Below, in pieces: positions 8,546 to 23,961 of a stretch of 25,853 bases of DNA (within the stretch, counting starts at the first letter, position 1; each line of letters begins with the position of its first letter). The notes beneath the pieces were generated by a model. That model was not told the origin of the DNA. It ran no database searches and saw only the letters and a program-made list of their open reading frames with translations. The stretch covers positions 1-25,853 of the IMG/VR virus record IMGVR_UViG_3300025324_000028; one strand, given 5' to 3'. This DNA comes from a virus. The position numbers and the translations under genes are program-made.

Positions 8546-8775
8546 CCGGGCGGCCTGAGAAGCGACGCCGACTCGGGATCGCCGCGCAACCGCGACAGGA
8601 CCGAGAAGCCGACCGAGATCAGCCCGGCGAAGGCGCCGACGGAGCAGGCCGCGGGGATGTCCGACCAGGAGGCGCCGTCCACAGCGAGGAGCGGCAGCCC
8701 GATCGCGAGCGATCCCTGAGCGAACGTCTTGGCTGCCCGCTCGAACGCGTCGAGCCAGAAGGCTTTCGTGAACAT
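8542..8775 (-). CDS. Holin, r1t-like
   Basis: A 77-residue membrane protein that begins MFTKAFWLDAFERAAKTFAQ. This is the hallmark opening of r1t-type phage holins (F-T-x-A-F-W-x-D-x-x-E-R-A-x-K-T-F-A-Q). Two hydrophobic segments follow, at about residues 21-33 and 43-62, with a short loop, and the tail is Arg/Pro-rich. Holins form membrane lesions that let the endolysin reach the cell wall. The ATG lies 4 nt after the minus-strand 11-mer GCCGATACTCG and has no Shine-Dalgarno. It is the last late gene and ends convergently with the secreted-protein gene. Confidence 0.88.
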   Translation of the reverse strand: MFTKAFWLDAFERAAKTFAQGSLAIGLPLLAVDGASWSDIPAACSVGAFAGLISVGFSVLSRLRGDPESASLLRPPG

Positions 8776-8779
8776 CGAG

Positions 8780-8790
8780 CGAGTATCGGC
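8780..8790 (-). promoter_or_regulatory. Start-associated 11-mer GCCGATACTCG, copy 1 (holin)
   Basis: Exact 11-mer on the minus strand, 4 nt upstream of the holin ATG. No Shine-Dalgarno is visible in the gap. See the finding on this motif. Confidence 0.8.
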
Positions 8791-8828
8791 AGCGCCCAGC
8801 TGCTAACCGGTCGTCGCGATGCCCACTA

Positions 8829-9062
8829 CTACGTCAGAATCCTGAGCGCCTCGCCCACCGGGCACCCGCGCCGCAGGAGCTCTACCGCGTCGTGCAGGTC
8901 GACGCCCGCGTTCTCGGCGAGGAGCAAAGCCTCCGCATCGCGGTAGCCCGCCCGAACCAGGCAGTCGAAGCGCCACACGACGACTCCGAAGTCGCGCACG
9001 CTCGAAGTCTCGTCGCCGGGATCGCAGTCGGTGGAGAAGCGCGGGGGCACGGGCGCGACCAT
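8829..9062 (-). CDS. Small protein in the lysis cassette (77 aa)
   Basis: A 77-residue soluble, acidic protein. The C-terminal half (RFDCLVRAGYRDAEALLLAE, then VDLHDAVELLRRGCPVGEAL) looks like a small helical bundle. I have a memory of similar short proteins beside lysis genes of actinobacterial phages, but no named family. Start is ATG 9062, whose A forms TGATG with the preceding stop; GTG 9065 is an alternative one codon upstream. It sits between the coiled-coil membrane protein and the holin. Role unknown. Confidence 0.7.
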   Translation of the reverse strand: MVAPVPPRFSTDCDPGDETSSVRDFGVVVWRFDCLVRAGYRDAEALLLAENAGVDLHDAVELLRRGCPVGEALRILT

Positions 9063-9436
9063 CACGCCGCCTTCACCGCATCCCGGATCTCCGTCAGCAC
9101 GCCGACCATGCGCTCGTGGCGGACACCCGCTGATCGCTCGTGGTCCTCGATCGAGCGCAGCACCGCGCCTTGATCGCGCTGAGATAGATCGGTCACCTGC
9201 GTGCGCAGCCCGGCGATGTCACTCTCGTGCCGCGCAAGCTCGCCCTTGAGCCGCTCGACTTCCTGGTCGAGCTCCTTGTTTCGGCGGACGAGATCCTCGT
9301 TCTCTTGGCGCAGCGTGCGCGAGGAGCGGCTCCAGCCAAGGGCATCGAGCGAGCGCTCGACGATATAGGCGAGCGCGGCGAACGCGATAGCGATCTCGAC
9401 GAAGGAGACTTCGGTGATGTGGAGCGCGGCCATCAT
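9062..9436 (-). CDS. Membrane-anchored coiled-coil protein of the lysis cassette
   Basis: A 124-residue protein with one N-terminal transmembrane helix (about residues 10-27, VSFVEIAIAFAALAYIVE) followed by a long heptad-rich coiled coil (about 35-100, for example NEDLVRRNKELDQEVERLKG). It lies directly after the endolysin with overlapping start and stop (AATGATG) and before the holin. The layout resembles spanin-like or second-holin accessory proteins in phage lysis modules, though Gram-positive phages usually lack spanins. A scaffold for holin or a lysis timing factor is possible. Not a recognised family. Confidence 0.75.
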   Translation of the reverse strand: MMAALHITEVSFVEIAIAFAALAYIVERSLDALGWSRSSRTLRQENEDLVRRNKELDQEVERLKGELARHESDIAGLRTQVTDLSQRDQGAVLRSIEDHERSAGVRHERMVGVLTEIRDAVKAA

Positions 9437-10038
9437 TCGGTCTCTCCGGCGATGACGAGCTGGCGCGCCTTCGCGACCACGTACAAGGCTGGGAAATGCC
9501 CTCCGGCGTAATGAACCGGCCAGCAGTCCCAGTGCCCGGCGCCGCCGAGATAGGTGCGCGAGACGTTCCAGTGCGTCGTGACTCCGGGTCGATCAGCGCG
9601 CGAGAAGCCGAGCGGGACATGGCCCTCGACGTGCAGCCACGCGATCCAGCCGGCGACGGTGTCGAGCTGCTTCCGCCGCGGCCCCGTGGGATCCCACATC
9701 GCCTTGCGCTTCGCCTTGTCCGGCTCGAGCGGGACCTCCGACACGAGCTCAAAGCCGATCGAGCGGGTGTTTACCCTGCCCGTGCCCGAGGCCGCGTGGT
9801 CGTAGATCGCAGTCGGGTCGTAGCACCAAGCCGAGTTGCCCTCCATGTCCACGATCCCGTGGATCTCGTACCCCTTGGAGTCGAGGTACGCGGCCGGGTT
9901 CTTGATATCCCAGAGGCCCACGTAGTTGCGTGAGACGGTCTCGTGCAGGACGACGAGCGACTTCGTCCCGTGCCCCGACTCCTCACCGCGGTAGTAGGGG
10001 CGAAGGTCGACGTCGACGCGTGGACGGCGCACGCTCAC
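9433..10038 (-). CDS. Endolysin, N-acetylmuramoyl-L-alanine amidase (Amidase_2)
   Basis: A 201-residue protein with the fold signature of zinc amidases that cleave the MurNAc-L-Ala bond of peptidoglycan. The zinc ligands are likely His32 (VVLHET), His156 (TTHWNVS) and Cys172 (GHWDCWP). A conserved strand SIGFELV lies at about 93-99, and a His81-Ala-Ala segment follows the predicted active-site strand (YDHAASG). There is no signal peptide, so export would rely on the holin, and no separate cell-wall binding domain; the C-terminal 20 residues are short. Start GTG 10038 lies 3 nt from the 11-mer motif. The holin is two genes downstream. Confidence 0.88.
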   Translation of the reverse strand: MSVRRPRVDVDLRPYYRGEESGHGTKSLVVLHETVSRNYVGLWDIKNPAAYLDSKGYEIHGIVDMEGNSAWCYDPTAIYDHAASGTGRVNTRSIGFELVSEVPLEPDKAKRKAMWDPTGPRRKQLDTVAGWIAWLHVEGHVPLGFSRADRPGVTTHWNVSRTYLGGAGHWDCWPVHYAGGHFPALYVVAKARQLVIAGETE

Positions 10039-10041
10039 CCC

Positions 10042-10052
10042 CGAGTATCGGC
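10042..10052 (-). promoter_or_regulatory. Start-associated 11-mer, copy 2 (endolysin)
   Basis: Exact GCCGATACTCG on the minus strand, 3 nt upstream of the endolysin GTG, in a 19-nt gap between genes. Confidence 0.8.
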
Positions 10053-10057
10053 GCGCG

Positions 10058-10519
10058 CTACTCCGGCTCTGGCGGAGAGACGAGCGCGTCCAGCATCTCT
10101 TGTGCGCCGGAGTCCCAGCCCGTGCCGTCCGCCTTGCAGGCGACGTACAGGCGGACGTCGTCGTCAGGGGTCGACGGATCGCCGAGCGCCGAGACGAAGT
10201 AGACGTCGGGGGATGCCTTCGCGATCTTGAGCGCGCGCTCGTGGAAGGCGACGCCCTCGTCGCGGTCGCGCTGGAACGAGTTGAGCGCGCGGGTCGTAGC
10301 CTCCGCGACGAGATTCACGATCGCCGGCGTCGGGAGTCCCTTCGCGGCCGCCATCGCGGCGACGCTCGTCGCGACCTCCTCAACCAACGGGGCGATTGCC
10401 TCCGGAGTCGCCTGCTTGCGCGCCTCGGTGAGCGCCTTCTCCTCGACCGAGATAGAGCCCGAGGCGAAGGCAACCGCGTAGCCGGCAGCGCGCACGTCGG
10501 CGATTGTCGTCTTAGGCAT
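10058..10519 (-). CDS. Hypothetical late protein (153 aa)
   Basis: A 153-residue protein rich in alanine and helix-forming residues over residues 1-110 (TIADVRAAGYAVAFASGSIS, then a long Ala/Glu helix), with a beta-like C-terminus ending SPPEPE. No cysteine-rich or enzyme motifs. The ATG lies within the last 8 nt of the preceding tail gene, with GTGAGG upstream. Position between tail-tip genes and the endolysin suggests a virion or lysis-associated role, for example a tail-tip accessory protein. No family recognised. Confidence 0.75.
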   Translation of the reverse strand: MPKTTIADVRAAGYAVAFASGSISVEEKALTEARKQATPEAIAPLVEEVATSVAAMAAAKGLPTPAIVNLVAEATTRALNSFQRDRDEGVAFHERALKIAKASPDVYFVSALGDPSTPDDDVRLYVACKADGTGWDSGAQEMLDALVSPPEPE

Positions 10520-11144
10520 CGTGGCGGATCCTCACCGGCGCCACCCGCATGAACCGGTTCTCGAACTGGACCGAGCCTCCACCGACCGAGCGATATTTCG
10601 CTGTCAGCGCAACCGGCGTAAGCCCTGTCTTTCGCCGCGTCCGCGACCCAGGCCCGCCTTCCTGCTCCGCATGGTGGATCGCATCGGCATCGACCGCCCC
10701 CGTCGCCCCGATGTCGTAGGACATGAACGAGGTCTCGCTGGCGGCGGCATCGCGCGAGCCCGAGTGCTCGACGTCGTAGTCGCCCGAGCGAGGCAGGGTG
10801 ACGGAGGGTCCGGCGGTTGCCAGCGCCGCGTACGAGGTCGACGTCGTCGCCTGCGATGTCACGACCTCGCTCCATAGCGGCGGACCACCGAGAAAGCGCC
10901 ACTTGTACGTCGTCTCGGCGGCGACGTAGCGGAAGTGCCACATGATCCCATTCGCGGCATCGACCTCGACGTAGGCCTCGTCTCCGTCCTCGAGCCCGGT
11001 CAGCGCCGAGAACTGCGCGACTGTGAGCACGCGGTGACCGCGATCGAGGAGCTTGTTGATGTTGTCGCGGAGATGGGCGTCCCAGTTGGTCTCGGTGAAG
11101 ACGTCGCCCGCGGACTTGTCAGGGACGGGAACAGAGATCGGCAC
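10512..11144 (-). CDS. Tail-tip / receptor-binding-type minor structural protein
   Basis: A 210-residue protein starting with GTG 11144, 3 nt after the 11-mer motif. The N-terminus (DVFTETNWDAHLRDNINKLL) matches the opening commonly seen in small siphophage tail-fibre-type proteins, where an F-T-x-x-N-W-x-x-x-x-R-D-N segment is followed by beta structure. The remainder is Gly/Ser/Thr-rich and beta-predicted, as in receptor-binding domains (WSEVVTSQATTSTSYAALAT). It lies just downstream of the large minor tail protein and upstream of the lysis genes, the usual position of distal tail components. Specific receptor unknown. Confidence 0.65.
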   Translation of the reverse strand: MPISVPVPDKSAGDVFTETNWDAHLRDNINKLLDRGHRVLTVAQFSALTGLEDGDEAYVEVDAANGIMWHFRYVAAETTYKWRFLGGPPLWSEVVTSQATTSTSYAALATAGPSVTLPRSGDYDVEHSGSRDAAASETSFMSYDIGATGAVDADAIHHAEQEGGPGSRTRRKTGLTPVALTAKYRSVGGGSVQFENRFMRVAPVRIRHDA

Positions 11145-11147
11145 GAC

Positions 11148-11158
11148 CGAGTATCGGC
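11148..11158 (-). promoter_or_regulatory. Start-associated 11-mer, copy 3 (minor tail protein)
   Basis: Exact GCCGATACTCG on the minus strand, 3 nt before the GTG at 11144, filling most of an 18-nt gap after the upstream TAG. Confidence 0.8.
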
Positions 11159-11162
11159 GGCG

Positions 11163-12677
11163 CTAATAGACCAGCACGTCTCCCTGCGCGCCCTCGGCGA
11201 CGATCACTGACGTCCCGATCCGAAATGGCGTGATGATCTCGTGCTTGGAGAGCTGCCAGCGGATCGAGTGCGAATGGCGTCGCGGGTCGATGCGGTGCTC
11301 GAGCGATTCGATCACATAGTCCGAGAGCGCGATCTCTGCGCCGGCGGCTGCGACGGTGACGACATCGCCGAGCTCTCGCGCGAGGCACTGCACGAGGAGC
11401 GCCTCGGTGCGGTTGTCGATCTCGACGTCGCGCAGCGGCTCGCGCGGTGAGCCGAGCTCGGCGAGAATGAAGGAGGCGAGCGCGTCAGCCTGCGTGTCCG
11501 CGCTCAGGTACGGCGTCTCTATGTCCTCGAGGTCGCGATCTCCGATGACAGTGCGCGAGGCCTGGTCGATGGAGGTCGCGACGTAGCCGGTCTGCGTCCG
11601 CTTCACGCGGACGCGGTTTCGGGCACGCGAGTGGTCGATGGCGGGCACGGCCGAGCTCATCTGGTGAGAGATGACCGCCGACGACTCGCGTAGCGTCCGC
11701 GAGATGCGGTCCTCGTAGACTGCGACGCCGGCGGCGTCGACGAAGAACGTTCCACGCTCGGCCTGCAGGAGCTCGCCGATAAGCTCGAGTCCGGTCTTCG
11801 AGCCGTCGGCCGAGAAGTCGAAGATCGTGTCCCCAGTCGCCAGCGAGCGCCCGGCGGGGTCGATCAGGCCGAGCGCGTCGAGCACCTTGCCGATCGCCGC
11901 TCCGGTCGTCGTCGTCCCGGTCGCGGCGATGATCGGCCGTGCCTCCGAAAGCCACAGTAGGAGGTCCTTGCACACGAGGACGGCGCTACCGGCGCCAGAA
12001 TCGCGGCGGAGGGGGTTCCACTCGATGCGGTCGAGGAAGCCGTAGAAGAGCGGATGCATCGCCCCCGAGGGTGCGAAGCCGCGCAGTCGGACACGCTGGT
12101 AGTGCGAGCTGAGAATGCCGTACAAGGGCCCGGCGGCATTCTCGGGGTTTAGGAGCCCTGTCACATCCCGGACGGAGATCCGCGCTTCCCCGCGCACGAG
12201 GAATGTGCGCAGGTCGTCGCGCCCGCGGCGGATCGTCGCCCCACGGAACATCGCCGAGAGGTTGTCGTATGTGCCAGTGAAGGTCACGTCGAAGGGCGAG
12301 AGCGCGAGCGTGTCGGTGCCGCCGACGGTCGACGTTCCGATGACGAACGCCCCTTCTGCGTGCGCCTCCCAGGAGACCTCGAGCGTGTAGCGCGCGAGCG
12401 CGACGCGCTGCGCGACGGCTGGCGGAGCCGCCACTCCTTTCGCTGCGGTCATCGGGCGGGCGATATTTGACTCGAGCGCCTTGCCGACGGGGATCGGTGT
12501 CGGGGGTCCCGATGAAGGAACCGGCGTGATGGAAAAGGCCGTGTCCGTCTCGAGCGCTTGGTTGACGGTGCGGACGCCAGTCGGGCGCAGGAAGAACGTC
12601 GTCCACGAGTCGCGGGGCGGCGGTTGCCGCTGATCGGGGAGTTGCTGCGGCGTGGCGCGCAGGCCGATGATCGACAC
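11163..12677 (-). CDS. Minor tail (baseplate/tip) protein with N-terminal ALETD repeats
   Basis: A 504-residue protein directly after the tape measure (3 nt gap), the usual slot for the distal tail and tail-tip proteins. Residues about 38-80 hold two degenerate copies of a motif (VNQALETDTAFSI and VGKALESNIARPMTAAK). That motif recurs ten times in the repeat protein at 23125-23961. Residues about 150-500 show beta-rich segments such as RRGRDDLRTFLVRGEARISV, DVTGLLNPENAAGPLYGILS and LFYGFLDRIEW, a pattern seen in central tail-tip or baseplate hub proteins. GTG start at 12677. It probably links the tube to the receptor-binding parts. Confidence 0.75.
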   Translation of the reverse strand: MSIIGLRATPQQLPDQRQPPPRDSWTTFFLRPTGVRTVNQALETDTAFSITPVPSSGPPTPIPVGKALESNIARPMTAAKGVAAPPAVAQRVALARYTLEVSWEAHAEGAFVIGTSTVGGTDTLALSPFDVTFTGTYDNLSAMFRGATIRRGRDDLRTFLVRGEARISVRDVTGLLNPENAAGPLYGILSSHYQRVRLRGFAPSGAMHPLFYGFLDRIEWNPLRRDSGAGSAVLVCKDLLLWLSEARPIIAATGTTTTGAAIGKVLDALGLIDPAGRSLATGDTIFDFSADGSKTGLELIGELLQAERGTFFVDAAGVAVYEDRISRTLRESSAVISHQMSSAVPAIDHSRARNRVRVKRTQTGYVATSIDQASRTVIGDRDLEDIETPYLSADTQADALASFILAELGSPREPLRDVEIDNRTEALLVQCLARELGDVVTVAAAGAEIALSDYVIESLEHRIDPRRHSHSIRWQLSKHEIITPFRIGTSVIVAEGAQGDVLVY

Positions 12678-12680
12678 GGC

Positions 12681-15164
12681 CTATACCCGCGATTCGTACA
12701 TCGCGACTCGATTGAGCTCCGGCTTGATGAGTGCGGCGAGGCGCTCGACCGAGGAGCGCTCGCCGATGAAGTCGCCGGCGACGTGGACGATGAGCTGAAA
12801 GCCGCCGGCGGCGGCTCCTGCAGGCGGCGACGAGCGCAGCGCCGAGTTCGGGAGGATGCGCCCCGCGCTCGACGGGATCAGGATCTCCGGACCGGCCTCC
12901 CCGACGAGGTAGGGGAAGCCCGCGCGCACGGGGCCGCCGTGCTGGCGCTTTTTCGGTGATTTGCCGTCGGAGGAGTCCGGGACGACCACGTCGACATTGA
13001 CCCGCACCTGGATATTGCTCAGGTGCTTCATGATCGCCTGGCGAACGGCGACGGCGGCCTTCTCGACCTCGACCGCCGCTTCGCGCAACCCCTCGGCGAG
13101 CGCCGCGCCGAGCGCGACCGTCGCCTCCTTGAACGGAACGCCGTACTTGGCGAAGATCTTCAGGAGCCGCTGATTGAACTGCTCGGCCGTGAGGGCGTGA
13201 CTCGAGGCGTATGCCTGCAGCCTCGCGAGATCCTCCTCGAAATGACGCCGCCGCAGCTCGGTGCGCTCGTTCAGCGCCGCCCGCTCGCGTGTGGCCTGCT
13301 GCTCGAGCTGGAAGCGCTGCTGCGCGGCGACAGCCTCATCGAGCGCCTTCTGCGCGGCCATGATCCGGCTCGACGCCTCGCCGATCCGGCGGTTGAAGTC
13401 CTCCTCCGATTCGTCCTCCTCCCGGACCGTGTCGGCGAAGCCTGCTTGGGCTTCGCCGAGCGCCGCCTTCGCCTCGGCGATCGCACGCTTTCGCTCCGCC
13501 TTCGCCGATCGCTCGTCCATCAGCCGCAGCTGCTTCTCTGTCCGCGTCTCGATCTGCGAGGCGAGTTCGTCGAAGGCCGCGAGCGCCTCGTTCGTGAGCG
13601 TGGAGAAGGCCTGCGCGAACGCCCCACGCTTCTCTTCGACCGCCGAGATCATGCTGTCGACCAGTGCGCGCGTCTTGCCCTCCATGTCCTTCGACACGGA
13701 GACGATGCCCTGGCCGAATCCCATACCGAGGCCCTCGGCGAGGAGCTTGCCGATGTCGATCATCACCTTCGAGGGCGAGAAGATCCCGAAGCCGCTCTTG
13801 ATCGAGTCGATGAGGCCTCCGACCTTGTCGCCGATCCAACCGACGAGCGAGTCCCAGGCGGCGGCGACACCCTGGCGGATGCCGTCGACGATCGCCGCCC
13901 CGATCGCCTTGGCGGCCTGAAGGACCACCCCGGTGAGCGATCGCAGCGTCTCCACGATCGAGCCGATCGTGCGGCTGACGATGGCCTTCAGCTCGGCCCA
14001 TGCGGTAGACCAGTCGCCGCGGAGGACGGCAAGGAAGAAGTTGATCGTAGAGCCGATGTTCCGAAGCTGCGCTTCGAGGAGCGGCGGCAGGCGCGTGAGG
14101 TGCCCCCTGAGCGAGGTCTGCATGTCGGCGCCCATGCGATCCCACGCTCGAGAGATGTTCCGCGAGACGCTCGTCATCGTGGGCTCGAGGTTGCGCTCGT
14201 ACCAGAGCATCACCTCCTCGGCGGCAGCACGCACCTCGCCCCAGTGCCGACGCGCAGCTTCCGCGAGGCGCCGGAACCAGTCGATCAGCTTGCCGATGAC
14301 CGGGACGAGGAACTCGATCGCCGCGACGACGGCGTCGAGCGTCGTCTGGATCACGCGCTGGATCGTCGGCATGTTCGCGTTGACCCAGTCGAGCAGTCGC
14401 GTGAGGTAGGGGAGGAGCGTCTCCGCGATGCGCCCTGCGATCTCCTCGAACGCGATGCGCGCCTTTGCGAGCTGCCCTGGCAACGTCTCCCCGAATGCCT
14501 TGGCCGAGCCGCCAACCTGCGATTCGACCTCGCCGAGGATGAGCTTCTGCGCGCCGAGGAGATCATTCGACTTGACCATCTGCTCGATGGCCTTCTTCTG
14601 CTCCTCGGAGAAGGTGACGCCGGCTCTGCCGAGCGCGGTCATGCCCTTCACCGGATCGTTCAGCGCCTTGCCCATCTGCTTTGCGGTGGTCTCGACGGAG
14701 CCGAAGCCGGCGACCGAGAGATCGAGCGCAGCCTTCGTGGCCTGATTGAAGACGTCGTTCCCGGCCCCGACCTCGTTACGCACGTTCTTGAACGTCAGAA
14801 GCAGGTTCTCGCCGGTCTGGATCAGTTCGTCGTCGATGCCGGTCAGGCGCGAGAGCGAACCCGCGAGCCTCCCGACCTCGCCCGCGGTGACATTCGCGAT
14901 CCCGCCCGTGGACTTGAGGACGGCACCCGTCTGGGCGGCGACCTTTTGCCCCTCCTGCAGCTCGTCGAAGCCGACCTTGAGCGTGGCTGCCAGCCCGACG
15001 AAGGCGGCGCCCACGCCAACGGCCGCGATCGTACCGAGACCCTTGAGGACGGAGCCGGTCCGGCGGCCGGCACTGCCGACGTCGAGGATCCCGCTGCGCG
15101 TGCGCCTGGCGGCACGGACCGCCGAGTCGGCATCGCCGGTGAAGACGACGCGAACGTCGGCCAC
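12681..15164 (-). CDS. Tail tape measure protein
   Basis: An 827-residue protein, the longest in the window, placed after the tail assembly chaperones as expected. The N-terminal 70 residues contain a Gly/Ala-rich hydrophobic segment (about 42-62, LGTIAAVGVGAAFVGLAATL). Next comes a helical region typical of tape measures (LSRLTGIDDELIQTGENLLL; KALNDPVKGMTALGRAGVTF). Around residues 445-475, GWIGDKVGGLIDSIKSGFGIFSPSKVMIDIG is another common element (quoted from WIGDKVGGLIDSIKSGFG onward in part). Residues about 540-690 form a charged coiled coil. The C-terminus reads GGPVRAGFPYLVGEAGPEIL, a signature frequent at the end of tape measures. It sets tail length and passes DNA into the cell; an 827-residue tape predicts a tail of roughly 120 nm. 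The GTG start has GAGG upstream. Confidence 0.93.
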   Translation of the reverse strand: MADVRVVFTGDADSAVRAARRTRSGILDVGSAGRRTGSVLKGLGTIAAVGVGAAFVGLAATLKVGFDELQEGQKVAAQTGAVLKSTGGIANVTAGEVGRLAGSLSRLTGIDDELIQTGENLLLTFKNVRNEVGAGNDVFNQATKAALDLSVAGFGSVETTAKQMGKALNDPVKGMTALGRAGVTFSEEQKKAIEQMVKSNDLLGAQKLILGEVESQVGGSAKAFGETLPGQLAKARIAFEEIAGRIAETLLPYLTRLLDWVNANMPTIQRVIQTTLDAVVAAIEFLVPVIGKLIDWFRRLAEAARRHWGEVRAAAEEVMLWYERNLEPTMTSVSRNISRAWDRMGADMQTSLRGHLTRLPPLLEAQLRNIGSTINFFLAVLRGDWSTAWAELKAIVSRTIGSIVETLRSLTGVVLQAAKAIGAAIVDGIRQGVAAAWDSLVGWIGDKVGGLIDSIKSGFGIFSPSKVMIDIGKLLAEGLGMGFGQGIVSVSKDMEGKTRALVDSMISAVEEKRGAFAQAFSTLTNEALAAFDELASQIETRTEKQLRLMDERSAKAERKRAIAEAKAALGEAQAGFADTVREEDESEEDFNRRIGEASSRIMAAQKALDEAVAAQQRFQLEQQATRERAALNERTELRRRHFEEDLARLQAYASSHALTAEQFNQRLLKIFAKYGVPFKEATVALGAALAEGLREAAVEVEKAAVAVRQAIMKHLSNIQVRVNVDVVVPDSSDGKSPKKRQHGGPVRAGFPYLVGEAGPEILIPSSAGRILPNSALRSSPPAGAAAGGFQLIVHVAGDFIGERSSVERLAALIKPELNRVAMYESRV

Positions 15165-15174
15165 GCTACGGCCT

Positions 15175-15215
15175 CGCGTCCGTGGTTAGAACAGTCTTAG
15201 GGGCGCGCGGACGCG
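15175..15215 (-). other. Hairpin-forming inverted repeat before the tape measure gene
   Basis: Perfect 8-bp arms CGCGTCCG (15175-15182) and CGGACGCG (15208-15215) with a 25-nt loop, in the 99-nt gap between the chaperone stop and the tape measure start. There is no T-run, so it is not a classical terminator. It could shape the leader of the tape measure gene or be chance in GC-rich DNA. Confidence 0.3.
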
Positions 15216-15263
15216 GGAGAGGGACTGCCGACCCCGGTCGAGCGCTTCTCACGGCAGACACGC

Positions 15264-17226: not shown

Positions 17227-17541
17227 CTAGGCCTCTGCCTCCTCGGCCGGCGGCTCCGGCTCTTCCTCAGACGTGGCGGCCTCTGCCTCCTCGGGAGCGA
17301 AGCCGAAGTGATTCTCTGCAACCGGCAGCGGGGCCGAGCCCTTCTTCACGCTCTTCTCCTCGAGCGGAAGGCCGAGCTCTGCCACGGCTGCGCTCATCGC
17401 CTCGACCGACTCGAATGCGCCGAGCGCGACGAACGCCTGCGCCTCGATCGCCTCCCCTGGCGTCCAGACGCCGGGGAATCCCGGGAACGTCATCGGCCCG
17501 TTGCCGACGGCCCCTTCGGGAAGAACGAACGCGAGACTCAC
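17227..17541 (-). CDS. Small late protein with acidic tail (104 aa)
   Basis: A 104-residue protein starting with GTG 17541, 3 nt after a perfect inverted-repeat version of the 11-mer motif. The N-terminal part is Gly/Pro-rich (FVLPEGAVGNGPMTFPGFPG), followed by a helix (EAIEAQAFVALGAFESVEAM). The last 25 residues are almost only Glu, Ala and Pro, hence disordered and acidic. It lies between the head-tail connector and the major tail protein. A head-completion or tail-terminator role would suit the position, but the sequence does not show it. Confidence 0.7.
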   Translation of the reverse strand: MSLAFVLPEGAVGNGPMTFPGFPGVWTPGEAIEAQAFVALGAFESVEAMSAAVAELGLPLEEKSVKKGSAPLPVAENHFGFAPEEAEAATSEEEPEPPAEEAEA

Positions 17542-17544
17542 GGC

Positions 17545-17555
17545 CGAGTATCGGC
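17545..17555 (-). promoter_or_regulatory. Start-associated 11-mer, copy 4
   Basis: Exact GCCGATACTCG on the minus strand, 3 nt before GTG 17541. Here the flanking bases complete the perfect dyad GCCGA-TAC-TCGGC. Confidence 0.8.
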
Positions 17556-17563
17556 TCGGATGG

Positions 17564-18055
17564 TCACAGAGACTGCCCCTTCGCGAAGCCGGGAGCGAGC
17601 GAGGGCGTCAACGTAAGCGCCTCGGCCTGCACCTGCTCGGGCGTCCCGTAGTCCGGGTTCTCCTCCCAGAAGTCGCCGGCGGATGCGCCGGCACCCGCCG
17701 ACTCGAGGGCAGCGACGGCCGGGAAGGTGCCCTTCGCGATCGCGGCGAGCGCGGCGAGCCAGACAGCCTGCGCGTACTTCTGAAGCTCCTCGAGCCCGTC
17801 GTCGCCAGGCACGCCGATCAGCGCGCGGGCGAGTGCTCCATAGGCCGTGACGTCGAGGAGTGCAGCCTTCGCCGCAGCGTCGGTGACGGGAGTCGAGATC
17901 CCACGCGCGGCGATCGCTGCATTGATCTCGGCCTCGACGTCGACCAGGAGCTTCTCGATGGTCGTCTCGTCGGGCTGCTTGCCGGCAACGGAGAAGAGCG
18001 GTGCGTAACGGCCGGCCCTGGCCTCGACGTCCGCGAACGTGGCGTAGCTCGCCAC
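17564..18055 (-). CDS. Head-tail connector / adaptor protein (gp6-like)
   Basis: A 163-residue helical protein. The opening MASYATFADVEARAGR and the following DETTIEKLLVDVEAEINAAI resemble head-tail connector (adaptor) proteins of siphophages, which bind the portal and continue the DNA channel. Position between major capsid protein and tail genes agrees. Starts with GTG 18055, 6 nt after the preceding stop (tandem TAG codons). The C-terminal 50 residues are Ala/Gly-rich and extended. Similarity is judged by eye. Confidence 0.65.
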   Translation of the reverse strand: MASYATFADVEARAGRYAPLFSVAGKQPDETTIEKLLVDVEAEINAAIAARGISTPVTDAAAKAALLDVTAYGALARALIGVPGDDGLEELQKYAQAVWLAALAAIAKGTFPAVAALESAGAGASAGDFWEENPDYGTPEQVQAEALTLTPSLAPGFAKGQSL

Positions 18056-18061
18056 GTACTA

Positions 18062-18334
18062 CTACTCGCCGGACTCGTCTTCTGCTGCGGGCTCGGACTC
18101 CTGTGCCGCTGCCTCTGCGGAGGCCTCATCCTTTGCTGCGGGCTCGGACTCCTCGGCGGGAGCCTCGCCCGCCTTGCCCTTGCGGGCCTTCTTCGGAGCC
18201 TCGATCGAACCCGACGCAAGATGGCGCTCGAAGTCCTCGTCCGAAAGAGCGACGGTGTCGCCCTTCGAGTAGCGGACCGTACCCTCGCCCTCGATGACGC
18301 CCAGCCGATCGGCGAGAACCGTGGCCTTCGGCAT
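18062..18334 (-). CDS. Small protein with acidic repeated tail (90 aa)
   Basis: A 90-residue protein that begins MPKATVLADRLGVIEGEGTV, overlapping the major capsid stop as TGATG. The first 45 residues look like a compact beta domain (VRYSKGDTVALSDEDFERHL). The tail is basic (PKKARKGKAG) then acidic, with the unit ESEPAA occurring twice; these are encoded by a 20-bp direct DNA repeat (near 18078 and 18137). Small proteins with a similar opening often follow phage capsid genes. Possibly a head completion or capsid-associated factor. Confidence 0.7.
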   Translation of the reverse strand: MPKATVLADRLGVIEGEGTVRYSKGDTVALSDEDFERHLASGSIEAPKKARKGKAGEAPAEESEPAAKDEASAEAAAQESEPAAEDESGE

Positions 18335-19275
18335 CAGGCGATCGAGGTGATGTTCACGACCGCGTCGGGCTGCACGAGCGCGATCGCGGGCCAGCGGCCG
18401 GCGAAGATCTCGGAGTGCACCATCGGCTTGCCGCCCTTCTCGACCTTCGTGTAGATCGGGCGGAAGCCGGGACCCGGATCGTAGGCCGACCAGCCCTCGG
18501 TTCCATCGGGCCGCTCGTCGGCGATCGTGCCGGCAATGCCCGAGTCCATGAGGATCGCGGTCGCGGCCGGGCACTGCGGCGTGAAGACGATCGCTCCGAG
18601 TCCGAGGAAGGGGGCGATCATGCCCGTGCGGATCTGACCCGACTCGGTCTCGCGCGGCAGCGCTGCGCGAAGAGCCGTGTTGTTGAGGAGATCCTGGCGG
18701 CGAGCCGTGTTCAGGACGAGCGTCGCGCCGGAGAAGCCGTCGTAGCCGTTGTCCTTCAGCTCGAGCAGCTCCTGCGCCTCGGCGATCTCGTCGATGATGT
18801 CCGTCCCGACGGTCGTCCACACCGCGGCCGAGCCGTTCGTCTGGATTGCCGGGTAGGTCGCAGTGTCCGTGAGGACAGCCATCGCGAGCGAGTCGATGCG
18901 GCGCGTGAGCCGGTTCGCGAGCTTGCGCAGTCCGCGCTGCACCATGTCGCGCTGGTTGCGGCGGACGGCGAGATTCGTGATCCGCACCCCAAATCCGTAC
19001 TGGCGGACGGCTGCCGTCTTGACGGCCTCCGACCAGTCGGTCATCGGGAAGTCGGCGCCTTCTGCGATCTCGGAGGGATCGTCGTCGACGTATATCGACT
19101 CGAGCTCCTGGTAGCGCATCGCGCCGCCGGCGACCTGGTCAGGCGAGCCCGGCAGGAAGAGGCGGTCGGCGATGAGCCGCTTGTTGACGAGGTTGACGAG
19201 TTCGCGCGAAAGGAGGGCCGGCTGCTTGAGAAGCGCCTGAACGGTGAGCGTGGGCGACGATGATGCGTACGGCAT
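18334..19275 (-). CDS. Major capsid protein, HK97 fold
   Basis: A 313-residue protein. Features typical of HK97-fold capsid proteins of actinophages include the N-arm (TLTVQALLKQPALLSRELVN), an E-loop-like strand (MRYQELESIYVDDDPSEIAE followed by GADFPMTDW), the spine helix with VRRNQRDMVQRGLRKLANRL, and the A-domain (ATLVLNTARRQDLLNNTALR; GLGAIVFTPQCPAATAILMD). It lies after the protease/scaffold and decoration genes, the canonical order. GGTGAGG precedes the ATG by about 7 nt, and the gap to the previous stop is 1 nt. It has no N-terminal scaffold delta domain; scaffolding is supplied by the nested product upstream. Confidence 0.88.
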   Translation of the reverse strand: MPYASSSPTLTVQALLKQPALLSRELVNLVNKRLIADRLFLPGSPDQVAGGAMRYQELESIYVDDDPSEIAEGADFPMTDWSEAVKTAAVRQYGFGVRITNLAVRRNQRDMVQRGLRKLANRLTRRIDSLAMAVLTDTATYPAIQTNGSAAVWTTVGTDIIDEIAEAQELLELKDNGYDGFSGATLVLNTARRQDLLNNTALRAALPRETESGQIRTGMIAPFLGLGAIVFTPQCPAATAILMDSGIAGTIADERPDGTEGWSAYDPGPGFRPIYTKVEKGGKPMVHSEIFAGRWPAIALVQPDAVVNITSIA

Positions 19276-19276
19276 C

Positions 19277-19714
19277 TCAGACCCTCACCAGGCAGCGGCC
19301 AGAGGCCTCGTCGGCGATGTCCTCGAGCGCGATCCCGACCATGCCCAGCGCGGCGTTGATCGCCGCCTCGACGGTCGTCTCGTTCAGGGTCGCGGTCGTG
19401 TCGATTACGAGCGTGGAGACGTGCCCCTCGTTGCCGGCGCCCGTCGCGACCGCGAGCTGATCGCCAGCCGTCACAGCACCTTCCGCCGTCAGCTTGGCGA
19501 TGTAGCCGTGGCACTGCACGGCGATCACGTCGCCGGCGGCGCCGGCGCTCTGCAGCGCGACTCCGACGACCTTCTTCGAGCCGACCGCGGCCTCGCCGAC
19601 CGTCATGCCGGCGGTGACCGCGACGAGCGTTCCGGCGTCGATGGCTGCGGCGGCGGCGAAGGAGACCTTCGAGCCGGGGCCGTAGATCGGAGTTATGCCG
19701 CCCGAGACGGCCAG
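19277..19714 (-). CDS. Capsid decoration protein (DUF2190-like), apparent CTG start
   Basis: The body (VGSKKVVGVALQSAGAAGDV; VQCHGYIAKLTAEGAVTAGD) is typical of DUF2190-type capsid cement proteins: small beta proteins with many Gly/Ala/Val. The first ATG (19606) would remove the conserved start. Coding quality continues upstream through ITPIYGPGSKVSFAAAAAID to LAVSGG, directly after an in-frame TAG. Family members usually begin MAVxGG...YGPG, so the first codon should be CTG at 19714-19712. A strong GGAGGAG lies 9 nt upstream of that CTG. Length is then 145 residues. Either CTG is used as start or a point change has damaged an ATG. It would stabilise the capsid surface. Confidence 0.75.
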   Translation of the reverse strand: MAVSGGITPIYGPGSKVSFAAAAAIDAGTLVAVTAGMTVGEAAVGSKKVVGVALQSAGAAGDVIAVQCHGYIAKLTAEGAVTAGDQLAVATGAGNEGHVSTLVIDTTATLNETTVEAAINAALGMVGIALEDIADEASGRCLVRV

Positions 19715-20311
19715 CTAGATCAGCTCCTCCACCTTGACGTTCATGCGCGAAGCGAGGTCGGCCTCGTAGGCCTTCTCGAGCTGCTCCTGCTCGGTCTTCT
19801 CCTCGGCCGAAGGCTGATCCGAACCGTGCTCGCGGACGAGCTCCTCGTCGGGCTTCAGCTCGGAGACGAAGTCCTTGGCGCCCTCGGAATCCTTGTCGAA
19901 AAGGCGCTCGAGCTTCTCGCGTGCGCCCGGCGCGATCTTGCCTACCTTGATCGCGTCCTCGACGAAACCGTTGCGCCGCTCGACGCGGAGCTCCTCGGCG
20001 GTGTCCTTCGAAGTCTTCTCGGCGGCCTCGAGGCGGCGCTCGAGCTCTTTGTAGCGCTCGTTCTCCTCGCCTGTGTCGTCTCCGCCGTGCTCGTTCTTGC
20101 GCTTGAGCGCCTCGAGGAGCTTGTCGGCGGTGACATCGTCACCCTCGACTCCGGCGAGTGAGGCGAGCTCCTTCGCCTGATCGTCCGAGACAATCGGCGC
20201 TGGCTGCTCTCCCGTGATCCCTGCAGCGCCCAGCATCTCGTCCGTGACCTTGTCGGCCTCGAGGCCCGTGGCCTCCGCGAACTGCTTGCGCTGCTTCTCG
20301 GAGAACTTCAT
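19715..20311 (-). CDS. Nested scaffolding protein from an in-frame internal start
   Basis: In-frame ATG at 20311-20309 begins MKFSEKQRKQFAEATGLEAD and yields 198 residues sharing the C-terminus of the protease. The 11-mer motif stands 4 nt upstream of this ATG, exactly as it does upstream of six independent gene starts, although here it lies inside coding sequence. The product is almost entirely helical, highly charged and lacks aromatic residues, as scaffolds do. Lambda Nu3 and Mu Z are expressed in the same nested way. No Shine-Dalgarno is visible, so the motif is the only start signal. Confidence 0.75.
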   Translation of the reverse strand: MKFSEKQRKQFAEATGLEADKVTDEMLGAAGITGEQPAPIVSDDQAKELASLAGVEGDDVTADKLLEALKRKNEHGGDDTGEENERYKELERRLEAAEKTSKDTAEELRVERRNGFVEDAIKVGKIAPGAREKLERLFDKDSEGAKDFVSELKPDEELVREHGSDQPSAEEKTEQEQLEKAYEADLASRMNVKVEELI

Positions 20312-20935
20312 CGCGCGAGTATCGGCAGGAGTGGCGCCTGAACCGGGGTCGAGCTCGCGGAAGAGGGCCTCGGCGGCGTGCTCGAGGAGGAGCTCGACGA
20401 GCTCGGGCTTCGCCGGCGGGTTCTCGTAGATGACGAGCACTCGACGCTCGGCGTCGCCTTCGTACAGCTTGACGACGTCCTCGAGCGTCGAGATCGCCGG
20501 CAACCGATCGCCGAGCCAGGCGAGCCCGGTTACGACCAGGTCGTAGGTCTTGCCCGTCTTCTGGCTCGTGATCGACGACAGCTCGGCCGAGCGCTTGCGG
20601 TAGGCGCCTGCCTTTACGAGCTCGCCGAAGACCTTCGGGACCTTCTTGATGTCGGCGAGGTACTTCGTGCCGTCGGCGTTCAGCCGGTGATTCGAGAGCC
20701 AGCCCACGGCCGGGCTCGAGCGAAGCGCGCCCTCCTGCGACTCGCCCATCTTGCGGTGACCGATACGCGACGGCGCCTGAAGCTCGCCGGCGAGCTCGTT
20801 CGCCGCGTCGACCATCGCCCGCAGCTGCTCCTTCGTGTAGTGGTCGCCCTCGGGCGGTGAGCCGATCGCATGGACGGGGCCGCCCGTGCTAAGGATCTCC
20901 ACTTCCTCAAGATCAACCGTTTGTAGATCCGGCAT
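19715..20935 (-). CDS. Mu gpI-like head maturation protease fused to scaffold
   Basis: A 406-residue protein. Residues about 1-190 resemble the Mu-like protease family: EGDHYTKEQLRAMVDAANEL; APSRIGHRKMGE; SSPAVGWLSNHRLNADGTKY; GAYRKRSAELSS; DLVVTGLAWLGDRLPA. The candidate catalytic residues are His in GHRK and Ser in RSAE, the positions conserved in that family. Residues 209-406 are charged, helical scaffold-like sequence (KELERRLEAAEKTSKDTAEE) that ends MNVKVEELI. The ATG at 20935 lies 3 nt from the 11-mer motif. The protease would process scaffold and perhaps capsid parts during assembly, in the arrangement known for lambda C/Nu3 and Mu I/Z. Confidence 0.85.
   Translation of the reverse strand: MPDLQTVDLEEVEILSTGGPVHAIGSPPEGDHYTKEQLRAMVDAANELAGELQAPSRIGHRKMGESQEGALRSSPAVGWLSNHRLNADGTKYLADIKKVPKVFGELVKAGAYRKRSAELSSITSQKTGKTYDLVVTGLAWLGDRLPAISTLEDVVKLYEGDAERRVLVIYENPPAKPELVELLLEHAAEALFRELDPGSGATPADTRAMKFSEKQRKQFAEATGLEADKVTDEMLGAAGITGEQPAPIVSDDQAKELASLAGVEGDDVTADKLLEALKRKNEHGGDDTGEENERYKELERRLEAAEKTSKDTAEELRVERRNGFVEDAIKVGKIAPGAREKLERLFDKDSEGAKDFVSELKPDEELVREHGSDQPSAEEKTEQEQLEKAYEADLASRMNVKVEELI
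20316..20326 (-). promoter_or_regulatory. Start-associated 11-mer, copy 5 (internal, scaffold)
   Basis: Exact GCCGATACTCG on the minus strand inside the protease frame, 4 nt before the internal ATG 20311. Confidence 0.8.
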
Positions 20936-20938
20936 GAC

Positions 20939-20949
20939 CGAGTATCGGC
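20939..20949 (-). promoter_or_regulatory. Start-associated 11-mer, copy 6 (protease)
   Basis: Exact GCCGATACTCG on the minus strand, 3 nt before the protease ATG 20935, in a 27-nt gap after the upstream TAG. Confidence 0.8.
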
Positions 20950-20962
20950 GCGGCCGCTCGCT

Positions 20963-21478
20963 CTAGCCGAAACGTTCCACAGTCTCGAGCCTGAAGACGA
21001 GGAGCACGGCGCATCTCCACTTCGAGAACTCACGGCCGTCCTCGGTCAGGTCAGCCGGGAGCACGTCCGTCCGCCAGGTCACCGCACCCGCGTCGTTCGG
21101 GATCTCCGCCTCACCGAAGGCGCCGGTCTGGGAGAGCACTTCGAGCACGCAGCGGGCCATGCCGAGCGAAGCTTCGTAGGTCGGGCCGATCTCGCCGCGC
21201 TCGCCCTCGAACCAGATTACGACGGCGATCTGCGGGAAGTGGTCGCCCTCACTGCGGTCGATCGCCCACTGTGCGGTCGCGCCGTCGGTCGCGGCGACCT
21301 CGATCGCAGGGAACTCGATGAGAGGGTCGGCGGCTCCGAAATGGAACGCGACGGGCGCGGTCAGCGTGACTTCGTTCTCGGGCTCCGCGTTGAAGGCTGC
21401 GATCTGCGTCGGCAAGTTCGCCTGGAGAGAGGCAATCGCGGAACGGATGATCGGCGCGGCGAACGTAATCGAGGGCAT
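20963..21478 (-). CDS. Head/tail connector-type protein (171 aa)
   Basis: A 171-residue protein with a helical start (SITFAAPIIRSAIASLQANL) and a beta-rich body (PLIEFPAIEVAATDGATAQW; HFPQIAVVIWFEGERGEIGP). It ends with REFSKWRCAVLLVFRLETVE. The pattern of an N-terminal helix then strands, with a conserved W-x-x-x-x-x-V-x-F type end, is seen in small tail-completion or stopper proteins. Lies between the gpG-like protein and the protease. The ATG is 4 nt after the 11-mer motif, which fills the entire 15-nt gap from the previous TGA. Specific role not certain. Confidence 0.7.
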   Translation of the reverse strand: MPSITFAAPIIRSAIASLQANLPTQIAAFNAEPENEVTLTAPVAFHFGAADPLIEFPAIEVAATDGATAQWAIDRSEGDHFPQIAVVIWFEGERGEIGPTYEASLGMARCVLEVLSQTGAFGEAEIPNDAGAVTWRTDVLPADLTEDGREFSKWRCAVLLVFRLETVERFG

Positions 21479-21482
21479 CGAG

Positions 21483-21493
21483 CGAGTATCGGC
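21483..21493 (-). promoter_or_regulatory. Start-associated 11-mer, copy 7
   Basis: Exact GCCGATACTCG on the minus strand. It begins at the base after the upstream TGA and ends 4 nt before ATG 21478, so it is the whole intergenic region except four bases. Confidence 0.8.
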
Positions 21494-21955
21494 TCAGGTC
21501 AAGCGGCGGAGAAGATCCCGTACGTAGTCCTCTGCGGCCTCGCCGAGCTCGTGCTCAGCCTGCAGCGGCAGCCGCTCGAAGATCAGGGGTCTGGCCGGCA
21601 TCGAAGCTGTACCGCTCTGATGATGCTGAAGTTTGGGGTCGTCAATCTGAAGCGTCAGGCTCTTTGCAGTTGCGCGCCGCGAGGGTCGCGAGGCCGCCTG
21701 CTTCATGGCGCCCGTGGCCTGGAGAATCTGAGGCCGCAGGCCGAGCCGCGCCTTGCGATCGACCGTCGAGAAGGCGAGCGGTGCCCAGCCGCCGGAGCCG
21801 AAGCTGCCTTCGGTCTCGAACTGCTGACGCATCCAGCCGACGAAGAGCGGGACGACCTTCGGCCAGAACGAGCGCAGGTCTGTCAGGAAGAGCGCCAGCC
21901 GCGCTAGGTCGCGGTCGGCGTCGTCGGAGTCGACGCGGATGCGAATGTCGGTCAT
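21494..21955 (-). CDS. Phage virion morphogenesis protein (Mu gpG/tail completion-like)
   Basis: A 153-residue protein. The N-terminal helix (RDLARLALFLTDLRSFWPKV followed by VPLFVGWMRQQFETEGSFGSGGWAPL) and the segment HHQSGTASMPARPLIF are characteristic of phage virion morphogenesis family proteins. That family has conserved H-Q-x-G and P-x-R-P/x-F/I near the C-terminus, and includes Mu gpG and P2 gpS. They act in head-tail joining or tail completion. The ATG overlaps the stop of the gpF-like gene (ATGA), mirroring the F-G order of Mu. Confidence 0.8.
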   Translation of the reverse strand: MTDIRIRVDSDDADRDLARLALFLTDLRSFWPKVVPLFVGWMRQQFETEGSFGSGGWAPLAFSTVDRKARLGLRPQILQATGAMKQAASRPSRRATAKSLTLQIDDPKLQHHQSGTASMPARPLIFERLPLQAEHELGEAAEDYVRDLLRRLT

Positions 21956-22713
21956 GCTGGCGCCGGTACCGCCCTACACCTGCACCGTCCGCCACCCAGG
22001 CACGCCGGATTCGGCCCGCCTCCGGGCAGCACTTCCTGGATCGCCGCCCAACTCGGGTAGGTCGTGCCGTCGAGCGGCCAACATTCAGAACAGGTGGCAG
22101 CGTCGAGGACGGCGGAATATTCAAAACCATCAACAAGATCCTCGTTCTCCTCGAAGGTCGCGCCCATGCCCGAGTAGAGCGCCGTCGATACGACCCGGCT
22201 CGCCAGATCGCGCGCGCCCGGCACGTTCAGAAGGGCCTGCCCGATCATCGCGGAGCTGGCCGCCGACAGATCGACCGCAACGAGATCGTCACTGATGCGG
22301 ATCCCGATGCCGAGCAGGCCGCGTCGGACTGTGTTCTGCAAGCTCTCGAACCCGCCGCCGGGAAGCGGATCGGGCGCGGCGAGGAAGCGCTCCGTCTGCT
22401 CGTCGAAGCCGTAGCCGGCGCGCTCGAGCTCGTTCATGGCCTCCTCGAGCCCGAGTGCGTGCAGCTCCTCCAGCGGTGCGAGAATCTCCTTCGTCAGCTC
22501 GAGCTGCGGGTAGGGCGTCGGTTGCGCCGAGCGGATCCAGGAGCGAGTCGCCCGCAGCATCTCCTCCGAGATCGCGGCGTCGAGCTCGTTTTTCGCGCGC
22601 TCGAGGGCGCCGTGCAGGAGCAGGACGTCGATAGCGCGCTCGGACTGGCGGAGCCTGCGACCTACAGCACTCTCGACAAGCGCGAACGTCTGCTCGAGCG
22701 CAGGAGCCGCCAT
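21952..22713 (-). CDS. Minor head protein, Mu gpF / SPP1 gp7-like
   Basis: A 253-residue protein. The C-terminal domain (about residues 175-253) has the signature of Mu F-like minor head proteins: ARDLASRVVSTALYSGMGAT, then AVLDAATCSECWPLDGTTYP with Cys-x-x-Cys, and a final PNPACLGGGRCRCRAVPAP with the Cys-x-x-x-x-x-Cys-x-Cys cluster likely to bind metal. The N-terminal 170 residues are helical. Such proteins are packaged in few copies near the portal and may be ejected with DNA. A portal gene normally precedes it; here four other virion-type genes intervene. Confidence 0.83.
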   Translation of the reverse strand: MAAPALEQTFALVESAVGRRLRQSERAIDVLLLHGALERAKNELDAAISEEMLRATRSWIRSAQPTPYPQLELTKEILAPLEELHALGLEEAMNELERAGYGFDEQTERFLAAPDPLPGGGFESLQNTVRRGLLGIGIRISDDLVAVDLSAASSAMIGQALLNVPGARDLASRVVSTALYSGMGATFEENEDLVDGFEYSAVLDAATCSECWPLDGTTYPSWAAIQEVLPGGGPNPACLGGGRCRCRAVPAPA

Positions 22714-22717
22714 CGGT

Positions 22718-23128
22718 TCACGTCGCCCTCGTGACGCTCGGGACGACGATCAGCTTCCCGCGCGCGACGGTCTCGTGGCGGGAGCCGAGCTCCCAGACGG
22801 CGTCCCAGACGAGGATCGTCCGATCCTTGTACTCGGCGGCGGCATCGGCGAACGTGGCCTCGGGGATGAGCGCCGTCGCGAAGTTCTTGTCGGCCGTCGC
22901 CGGCGAGTTAAGCGTGATCCCCGAAGCCTCGGTGAGCTGGACCTCGCCGGGGTCGGCGTCGTCGACGGAGTGCTTGACGGTCAGCCACATCTTCGTCCCG
23001 ACGGCCGTCAGGTCGATTGGCACCTTCACGCCGAGATAGTTCTCCGTCGTGAGCGGGCCGAGCTCGAGCGTGACCGTGCGGGCTCGCTCGACGACGAGGT
23101 CGAACGTCGGGAGCGTCTCGATCGTCAC
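22718..23128 (-). CDS. Beta-rich virion-type protein (136 aa)
   Basis: A 136-residue protein starting with GTG 23128, which overlaps the TGA of the repeat protein (GTGA). The sequence (FDLVVERARTVTLELGPLTT; DLTAVGTKMWLTVKHSVDDA; DRTILVWDAVWELGSRHETV; ARGKLIVVPSVTRAT) has alternating strands. It resembles the small immunoglobulin-like or BppU-N-type domains attached to phage fibres, where a polynomial of W/V strands ends in a G-x-hydrophobic stretch. The frame is open further upstream but lies there on the repeat gene's antisense-quality frame. The 11-mer copy 8 is 37 nt upstream. Function unknown, probably structural. Confidence 0.7.
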   Translation of the reverse strand: MTIETLPTFDLVVERARTVTLELGPLTTENYLGVKVPIDLTAVGTKMWLTVKHSVDDADPGEVQLTEASGITLNSPATADKNFATALIPEATFADAAAEYKDRTILVWDAVWELGSRHETVARGKLIVVPSVTRAT

Positions 23129-23961
23129 GAGTGGGTCTGCGTCTTCGCCTGAGCCATGACTAGCCGAGTATCGGCGGCCCCTTGAGCCCGGCGCGCTCGC
23201 GCAGCCGTCCCGAGGACGAGCCGTACGCCGCCGACGTCGACCAAGCCCTGAATGGTCGCGCCGCCAGGCGCGAAGGCAAGCGCGAGATCGGTCTCGAGCG
23301 CCTGGCCGACGAACCTGATCTTCAGTCGGCCGAACGGCTGAGCGACGTCGAGCTCTTGTGCCTGGCCGATGGCCCTCGACTTCGTGTGAGCGAAGACCTG
23401 CGCGAGATCGACCTCGAGCGCCTGCCCCAAGGTACTCGACTTGAGCCGCCCCAGCGGCTGCGCCAGGTTCGACTCGGAGGCCTGTCCGAACGCCCGCAGC
23501 TTCAGCCTCGTGAAGGGCTGCGCGAGATCGACCTCGAGCGCCTGGTTGACGAGCCGGCGCTTGGGTGCCCACGCGATCGGCTGCGCGAGATCGGTCTCGA
23601 GCGCCTGCCCCAGCGCTTTCAGCTTGAGTCGGCCGAACGGCTGCGCCGTGTCGACCTCGAATGCCTGTCCGAAGAGGAGAACTTTCGCGCGCCCGAACGC
23701 GCTCGCCGTATCGGTCTCGAGCGCCTGTCCGATGACCACGCTCTTGACCTCGGTGAAGGGCTGGGCGACGGCGGTCTCGGCCGCCTGTCCGACGACGTAT
23801 GTGCGGAGCGGGCGGATCTGCTGCGCGACGCCGGTCTCGAGGGCCTGGCCCAGCGTCACCGTGCCCGTCGGCCCGCTAACCGGGAGCGAGCCGAGCAGTT
23901 GCGAGACGCGGATGAGTCCCGGATAGCTGTACGAGCGTGCGGGCCAGAGCGGGCGCGTCAT
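23125..23961 (-). CDS. Virion-type protein built of ten 20-residue ALETD repeats
   Basis: A 278-residue protein with ATG 23961 overlapping the previous stop (ATGA). After an N-terminal segment (MTRPLWPARSYSYPGLIRVS), residues 37-237 are ten tandem units. The consensus is roughly hydrophobic-G-Q-A-L-E-T-D-L-A-Q-P-F-G-R-L-K followed by four variable residues. Nine units are exactly 20 residues and one is 21. The end is GTAARARRAQGAADTRLVMA plus a short tail. The strict period and the alternation of small hydrophobic and acidic residues suggest a beta-solenoid or fibre shaft. The same motif occurs twice in the minor tail protein at 11163-12677. Similar runs recur in uncharacterised phage proteins as I remember, but I can name no family. 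Confidence 0.8.
   Translation of the reverse strand: MTRPLWPARSYSYPGLIRVSQLLGSLPVSGPTGTVTLGQALETGVAQQIRPLRTYVVGQAAETAVAQPFTEVKSVVIGQALETDTASAFGRAKVLLFGQAFEVDTAQPFGRLKLKALGQALETDLAQPIAWAPKRRLVNQALEVDLAQPFTRLKLRAFGQASESNLAQPLGRLKSSTLGQALEVDLAQVFAHTKSRAIGQAQELDVAQPFGRLKIRFVGQALETDLALAFAPGGATIQGLVDVGGVRLVLGTAARARRAQGAADTRLVMAQAKTQTHS
23165..23175 (-). promoter_or_regulatory. Start-associated 11-mer, copy 8 (off-register)
   Basis: Exact GCCGATACTCG on the minus strand, inside the 3' end of the repeat gene. It is the only copy not 3-4 nt from a likely gene start: an ATG lies 7 nt downstream, in frame with the repeat gene (10-codon end), and the next gene's GTG is 36 nt downstream. Confidence 0.75.
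23251..23853 (-). repeat. Tandem 60-bp coding repeats (10 units)
   Basis: DNA counterpart of the protein repeats. Units are 60 bp (one is 63). Blocks such as GCGAGATCGACCTCGAGCG recur with few changes on the plus strand, for example near 23402 and 23522, and near 23281 and 23586 with one variant. DNA similarity is high enough for unequal recombination, so copy number may vary. Confidence 0.85.

Follow-up and report, generated by a model that had tools for sequence, protein, structure and literature searches.

A motif abutting gene starts in a family of uncultured tailed phages, probably a single-element late promoter for a phage sigma factor

Promoters that consist of one short element and are read by a phage-encoded sigma factor are already known. 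In T4, the minimal sigma gp55, which lacks region 4, serves the late genes through many copies of a -10-only element (TATAAATA), and the late mRNAs carry leaders with a Shine-Dalgarno sequence. The sigma factor of phage phiEco32, gp36, recognizes the single element tAATGTAtA, with RNA starting 6 to 8 nucleotides (nt) downstream (PMC8948821), and the related phage 7-11 has a diverged sigma factor and a different promoter (PMC8948821, PMC4331800). The start-associated sequences (SAS) of cluster K mycobacteriophages (GGGATAGGAGCCC) contain a Shine-Dalgarno sequence, occur outside the structural genes and lie 3 to 7 nt before starts (PMC3203893). Leaderless transcripts are common in mycobacteria (PMC4633059), and Thermus phage P23-45 has extended -10 middle and late promoters, with gp39 redirecting the host sigma holoenzyme (PMC7403470).

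Here we analyzed a 25,853-nt fragment of an uncultured tailed phage (IMG/VR record IMGVR_UViG_3300025324_000028, positions 1 to 25,853; hereafter, the window), in which an 11-mer, GCCGATACTCG, recurs ahead of late genes. We consider it probable that this motif and its counterparts in related phages act as late promoters of one element each, recognized by a phage sigma factor and yielding transcripts with no leader or almost none. The initial annotation took it for an undescribed start-associated system; it does differ from the SAS, but it appears to belong, as a variant, with the phiEco32 gp36 and T4 gp55 kind, a placement that is strong as a comparative result. As in phiEco32, a putative phage sigma factor goes together with one short, well-conserved element without a -35 box upstream of structural genes, and, as between phiEco32 and 7-11, both motif and sigma diverge between relatives. 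The element itself is different, however, transcription would start about 4 nt downstream instead of 6 to 8, and the putative sigma factor is spread over two reading frames. Coupling to the start codon, an internal site for the scaffold and a site before tRNA genes are features of this family that are not reported in the portion of the phiEco32 literature used here. With T4 the family would share a -10-only element that recurs many times to serve late genes; it differs from T4 in the element, in the presence of region 4 and in the T4 leaders with their Shine-Dalgarno sequences.

All eight exact copies of GCCGATACTCG lie on the minus strand of the window, and a recheck confirmed every coordinate given before. 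Under a Markov model 0.019 copies were expected on that strand, and no 11-mer exceeded six copies in 200 simulated sequences. There were no one-mismatch copies in the window, while allowing two mismatches raised the total to 28, versus 19 expected. Seven copies end 3 or 4 nt short of a start codon, ATG or GTG, as first annotated (binomial chance, 5.5e-10). The copies and the gene that contains two of the starts are as follows.

8780-8790, minus strand: copy 1, 4 nt before the ATG at 8775 of the holin gene (8542-8775, PHROG 443)
10042-10052, minus strand: copy 2, 3 nt before the GTG at 10038 of a 201-amino-acid gene (9433-10038) with a weak endolysin match
11148-11158, minus strand: copy 3, 3 nt before the GTG at 11144 of a 210-amino-acid minor tail gene (10512-11144)
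17545-17555, minus strand: copy 4, 3 nt before the GTG at 17541 of a 104-amino-acid gene (17227-17541)
20316-20326, minus strand: copy 5, within the protease open reading frame (ORF), 4 nt before the internal in-frame ATG at 20311 (scaffold, 199 codons including the stop)
20939-20949, minus strand: copy 6, 3 nt before the ATG at 20935 of the protease-scaffold ORF (19715-20935)
21483-21493, minus strand: copy 7, 4 nt before the ATG at 21478 of a 171-amino-acid gene (20963-21478)
23165-23175, minus strand: copy 8, in the 3' end of an ORF (23125-24447), 36 to 37 nt before the GTG at 23128 of the next gene
19715-20935, minus strand: head maturation protease with the internal in-frame scaffold start (PHROG 3894/976)

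In the right part of the window lie head, connector, tail and lysis genes, every one on the minus strand. The left part carries integrase, RecT, SMC-like and phosphoesterase genes, and the phage looks temperate because of the integrase.

Relatives were collected by capsid, protease and terminase searches. One record, G003 (3300002124_000142), overlaps the window across 6,295 bases at 99.9% identity and supplies the upstream part of the same phage. Ten further phages are related (G001, G002, G005 to G011 and G015), which makes 11 phages in the motif set; G004 is a fragment identical to G002. The gene used to find the family was the following.

18334-19275, minus strand: major capsid gene (PHROG 1650), without a motif of its own in any relative

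Capsid identity within the family ranges from 51 to 77%, and G+C content from 67 to 72%. Judged by the capsid, the closest phages in culture are those of Gordonia, Mycobacterium and Arthrobacter, at only about 31 to 33% identity over four fifths of the protein, and this makes an actinobacterial host likely; the terminase reaches 27 to 33% identity to cultured phages across half of the protein or less. Two scans of genome contigs with capsid and terminase alignments, aimed at finding the host, gave no prophage relative. Outside the family, scans of the collection returned many single motif copies attributable to chance, and among the matches listed only family members had several.

Following the check proposed in the initial annotation, we searched the motif relative to gene starts in these phages. 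The relatives keep it at orthologous starts with the same spacing, each with its own enriched word, so that 86 sites were found in the 11 phages, 85 of them on the coding strand. Four classes were found independently: CGATACTCG (the window, G002 and G011), CGATAGTAG (G001 and G015), CGAAYCTAG (G005 to G008) and CGACATTCG (G009 and G010). Among the 71 sites followed by an ORF, a 3-nt gap to the start codon was found 42 times and a 4-nt gap 15 times (57 of 71 together), and the start codons were GTG (42), ATG (27) and TTG (2). At two sites, G005:9438 and G007:8221 (oriented), the orthologous gene behind the motif seems to open with ATC, where G006 and G008 have GTG.

Site position is kept despite the differing word at the portal, the 171-amino-acid gene, the protease, the internal scaffold start and the 104-amino-acid gene (the last in eight relatives), while the site of the minor tail gene is retained at its orthologues in G001 and G011. 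The internal site within the protease gene is present in every relative that covers this region, and the unusual placement of copy 8, 36 to 37 nt before a start, is the same in G002 ahead of the orthologous gene. A conserved element standing in one orientation where middle or late transcription units begin is a feature of phage-sigma promoters, and it is found here, ahead of structural and lysis genes. In all phages of the family the motif is absent before the capsid, tape measure and terminase genes, in keeping with promoters placed where units begin.

Aligned over 85 sites, the element has a compact form. With +1 set at the purine that stands 4 nt beyond the motif, information is restricted to positions -14 to +3, with GC at -14/-13 followed by C G A N N N T [A/C] G, so that the family-wide form can be written CGANNNT[AC]G-nnC-R. 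Between -72 and -15 these sites nowhere give more than 0.1 bit, and neither they nor the consensus of any single phage contain a shared -35, in agreement with the initial annotation. C-12, G-11, A-10, T-6 and G-4 are invariant and identical across the four motif classes, although invariance within the nine bases partly follows from the way in which sites were collected. Position -1 is C in 75% of sites and +1 is G or A in 77%. The invariant A and T have three bases between them, just as the two key bases of a -10 element do, and they match its A-11 and T-7 positions with a displacement of one base.

In five phages the motif stands directly before a Met-anticodon tRNA gene or a tRNA-like gene. 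In three of them ARAGORN found a CAT-anticodon tRNA gene beginning 3 to 7 nt behind the motif, two of these being recognized by Rfam as well (oriented coordinates below).

G001:13709-13781: phage tRNA (CAT), directly behind the motif
G007:8140-8212: phage tRNA (CAT), directly behind the motif
G015:16336-16408: phage tRNA (CAT), directly behind the motif

G005 and G008 have a tRNA-like cloverleaf at the same place that Rfam does not recognize. By eye, the tRNAs lack a 1-72 pair, and those of G001 and G015 have three G-C pairs in the anticodon stem; they look initiator-like. Since a signal for the ribosome has no use before a tRNA gene, these sites argue for a motif that acts in transcription rather than translation. 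The suggestion in the initial annotation of a -10-like element for leaderless late mRNA, without a -35, is thus favored by the orthologous starts, by the A and T positions and by the tRNA sites.

A candidate for the cognate factor is present in the family. Upstream of the terminase gene, all 10 phages whose sequence covers the region have a diverged sigma-like gene, in which regions 2 and 4 lie in two overlapping frames offset by +1.

G003:788-1379: sigma regions 2 and 4 in overlapping frames (also in G001, G002, G005 to G009, G011 and G015)

ECF-like members of the sigma-70 family have the two regions in a single protein, and here both domains are present but split between frames. Region 4 is always one base on from region 2, with NTG at the junction in nine phages. 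It opens with ATG in five phages and with GTG, TTG or CTG in four; its frame is conserved, which the other frame mostly is not. Pfam Sigma70_r4_2 matches in eight of nine phages and Sigma70_r2 in six of nine, mostly below the cut-offs, with one phage above that of region 2 in a whole-genome search. A profile search of region 2 against the PDB returned mostly sigma factors (FliA, SigI, WhiG), and sigma factors also rank first for its predicted fold, including SigH, SigB and T4 gp55 (best Z, 8.6; gp55, 8.2). Because T4 gp55 ranks alongside ECF sigma factors, the fold points to no one sigma class as the nearest. The predicted fold of region 4 matches region 4 of SigD, sigma-E and SigL but LuxR-type DNA-binding domains too. 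No relative of region 2 was found in the phage collection. These lines are weak when taken alone, yet they agree in suggesting that the gene encodes a diverged phage sigma factor. The two frames would be either fused by programmed frameshifting or translated into a two-subunit sigma, as in SigO/RsoA of Bacillus. In G001, G002 and G006, a small Cys-rich, zinc-ribbon-like protein (CGWR-Y-PNG-PGW) is encoded downstream of region 4, in the frame of region 2. G015 has a second, ordinary sigma region 2 above the Pfam cut-off at 1344-1550, its family sigma being at 9668-10178.

Motif and sigma seem to change together. Motif distance correlates with identity of sigma region 2 at r = -0.75, compared with -0.63 for the terminase and -0.47 for the capsid, and the correlation with region 2 holds when capsid identity is kept constant (permutation P = 0.003). 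The sequence of the motif tracks sigma region 2 better than it tracks the capsid, and one phage shows this directly. G006 is an apparent recombinant, with a capsid of the window lineage (69 to 72% identity) but the sigma, terminase and motif class of G005, G007 and G008, to which its region 2 is 49 to 59% identical. Its sites, those of the protease and the scaffold included, bear the GAAYCT word.

We propose the following course of infection. Expression of the early genes would fall to the host enzyme, and the phage sigma, encoded just upstream of the terminase gene and the late operon, would be produced and bind core RNA polymerase, as its homology suggests. The polymerase bearing it would open DNA at this one element, with no need of a -35 box, in keeping with the pairing described above, and RNA would start at the purine about 4 nt past the element, as nnC-purine and the tRNA ends seem to indicate. 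This purine would usually be the first base of the ATG or GTG, or lie one base earlier. Most late mRNAs would be leaderless or have a leader of a few nucleotides, which actinobacterial ribosomes could translate. Transcripts of the tRNA genes behind the element would begin at about the mature 5' end and would yield late tRNA, and the site inside the protease gene would yield a separate message for the scaffold. Such promoters would resemble the leaderless promoters of mycobacteria, whose -10 element also directly precedes ATG or GTG (PMC4633059); those are read by host sigma, whereas here the element is phage specific and the proposed sigma is the phage's own. It is possible, and we put it forward tentatively, that this undescribed phage family expresses its late genes as a leaderless regulon, in which a two-frame sigma, joined by frameshifting or made of two subunits, reads promoters abutting start codons, one of them driving an initiator-like tRNA that could help leaderless mRNAs bind ribosomes.

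If the promoter assignment is right, an uncultured phage family gains a readable late-gene code, covering the composition of units, the scaffold start and a tRNA made late. The family would also provide a series of naturally occurring sigma factors, each paired with its own promoter variant and one recombinant among them, for the study of how region 2 sets -10 specificity, and it suggests a possible identity for the short repeats that accompany starts in phage genomes.

Several observations weigh against this assignment. The relationship to sigma factors is remote, with a single phage passing the Pfam region-2 cut-off on the gene, Foldseek E-values are above 0.1 for the sigma models, and common helical arrangements can give Z scores as high as the best ones for the folds here, 8.6 and 7.7. 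The correlation comes from ten phages, which are few, and the terminase, a neighbor of the sigma gene, correlates too, so that the pairing is support and not proof. If RNA starts at the start codon, T at -6 leaves a discriminator that falls one base short of the usual length. In G009 and G010 the gap to the start codon is 5 to 7 nt, and a few sites lack a clear gene downstream (e.g., G011:14099 and G008 minus 25440). From sequence we infer the RNA start sites and the pairing of sigma and motif, as well as leaderless translation, late timing and recognition of the motif by the sigma of the family.

An unlikely alternative is that the promoter is read by the host sigma, assisted by either a phage activator or a protein that remodels sigma, on the model of Thermus phage P23-45 or the T4 middle promoters, and that the sigma-like gene serves other promoters. 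A host sigma would account for the invariant A and T, and the -10-like core with its extended upstream GC resembles extended -10 promoters, the class to which the middle and late promoters of P23-45 belong (PMC7403470). As in P23-45, phage genes would be expressed from promoters without a -35; the difference lies in a sigma proposed to be the phage's own, instead of a host holoenzyme redirected by gp39. Against it, the core varies between phages along with sigma region 2, while a host sigma would be expected to keep it constant, and every phage has G where the hexamer would have its first T.

We find it very improbable that the motif is a start-associated translation signal, that is, a site in the 5' untranslated region where an RNA or protein binds in place of a Shine-Dalgarno sequence, as in the cluster K SAS. 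The motif does occupy the Shine-Dalgarno position, and the SAS also stand 3 to 7 nt from starts (PMC3203893); they are likewise short, asymmetric repeats in one orientation. The genes behind the motif lack a Shine-Dalgarno, as annotated initially: a GGAG-type site precedes none of the seven window starts and 5 of 64 motif starts over all phages, against a background of 15%, a contrast that discriminates only weakly because the motif itself fills that region. The translation signal was rejected on the sites before tRNA genes, which have no reading frame; moreover, two orthologous sites lie 36 to 37 nt from the start, and by eye there is no complementarity to the 16S 3' end. Nor is the system SAS, because consensus, Shine-Dalgarno and gene class all differ: as had been noted of their sequences, no motif class contains an AGGAG core, and the sites are found in the structural and lysis module, plus tRNA genes, without a Shine-Dalgarno.

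Less probable still is an operator similar to L5-type stoperators, one-directional sites at which a repressor blocks transcription in lysogeny. The motif is asymmetric, in a single orientation, in many copies and different between phage lineages, and the window has an integrase and looks temperate. The constant distance from start codons and tRNA ends, the nnC-purine, the restriction to late genes and the internal copy that every relative covering the region carries ahead of the scaffold start nevertheless fit a promoter better, and changes in the motif follow the sigma protein. The regulator that the initial annotation offered as an alternative, binding the near-palindrome GCCGA-TAC-TCGGC, was rejected, as the palindrome is not conserved and its flanks and 3' (right) half vary in relatives.

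Two other repeats were seen in these genomes. The 11-mer CTCGAGCGCCT has seven copies in the window, both strands counted, when simulations suggest up to six per strand by chance. G002 has an enriched tandem-like word, GTTCCTGTTCC, in six copies, which is unrelated to the motif.

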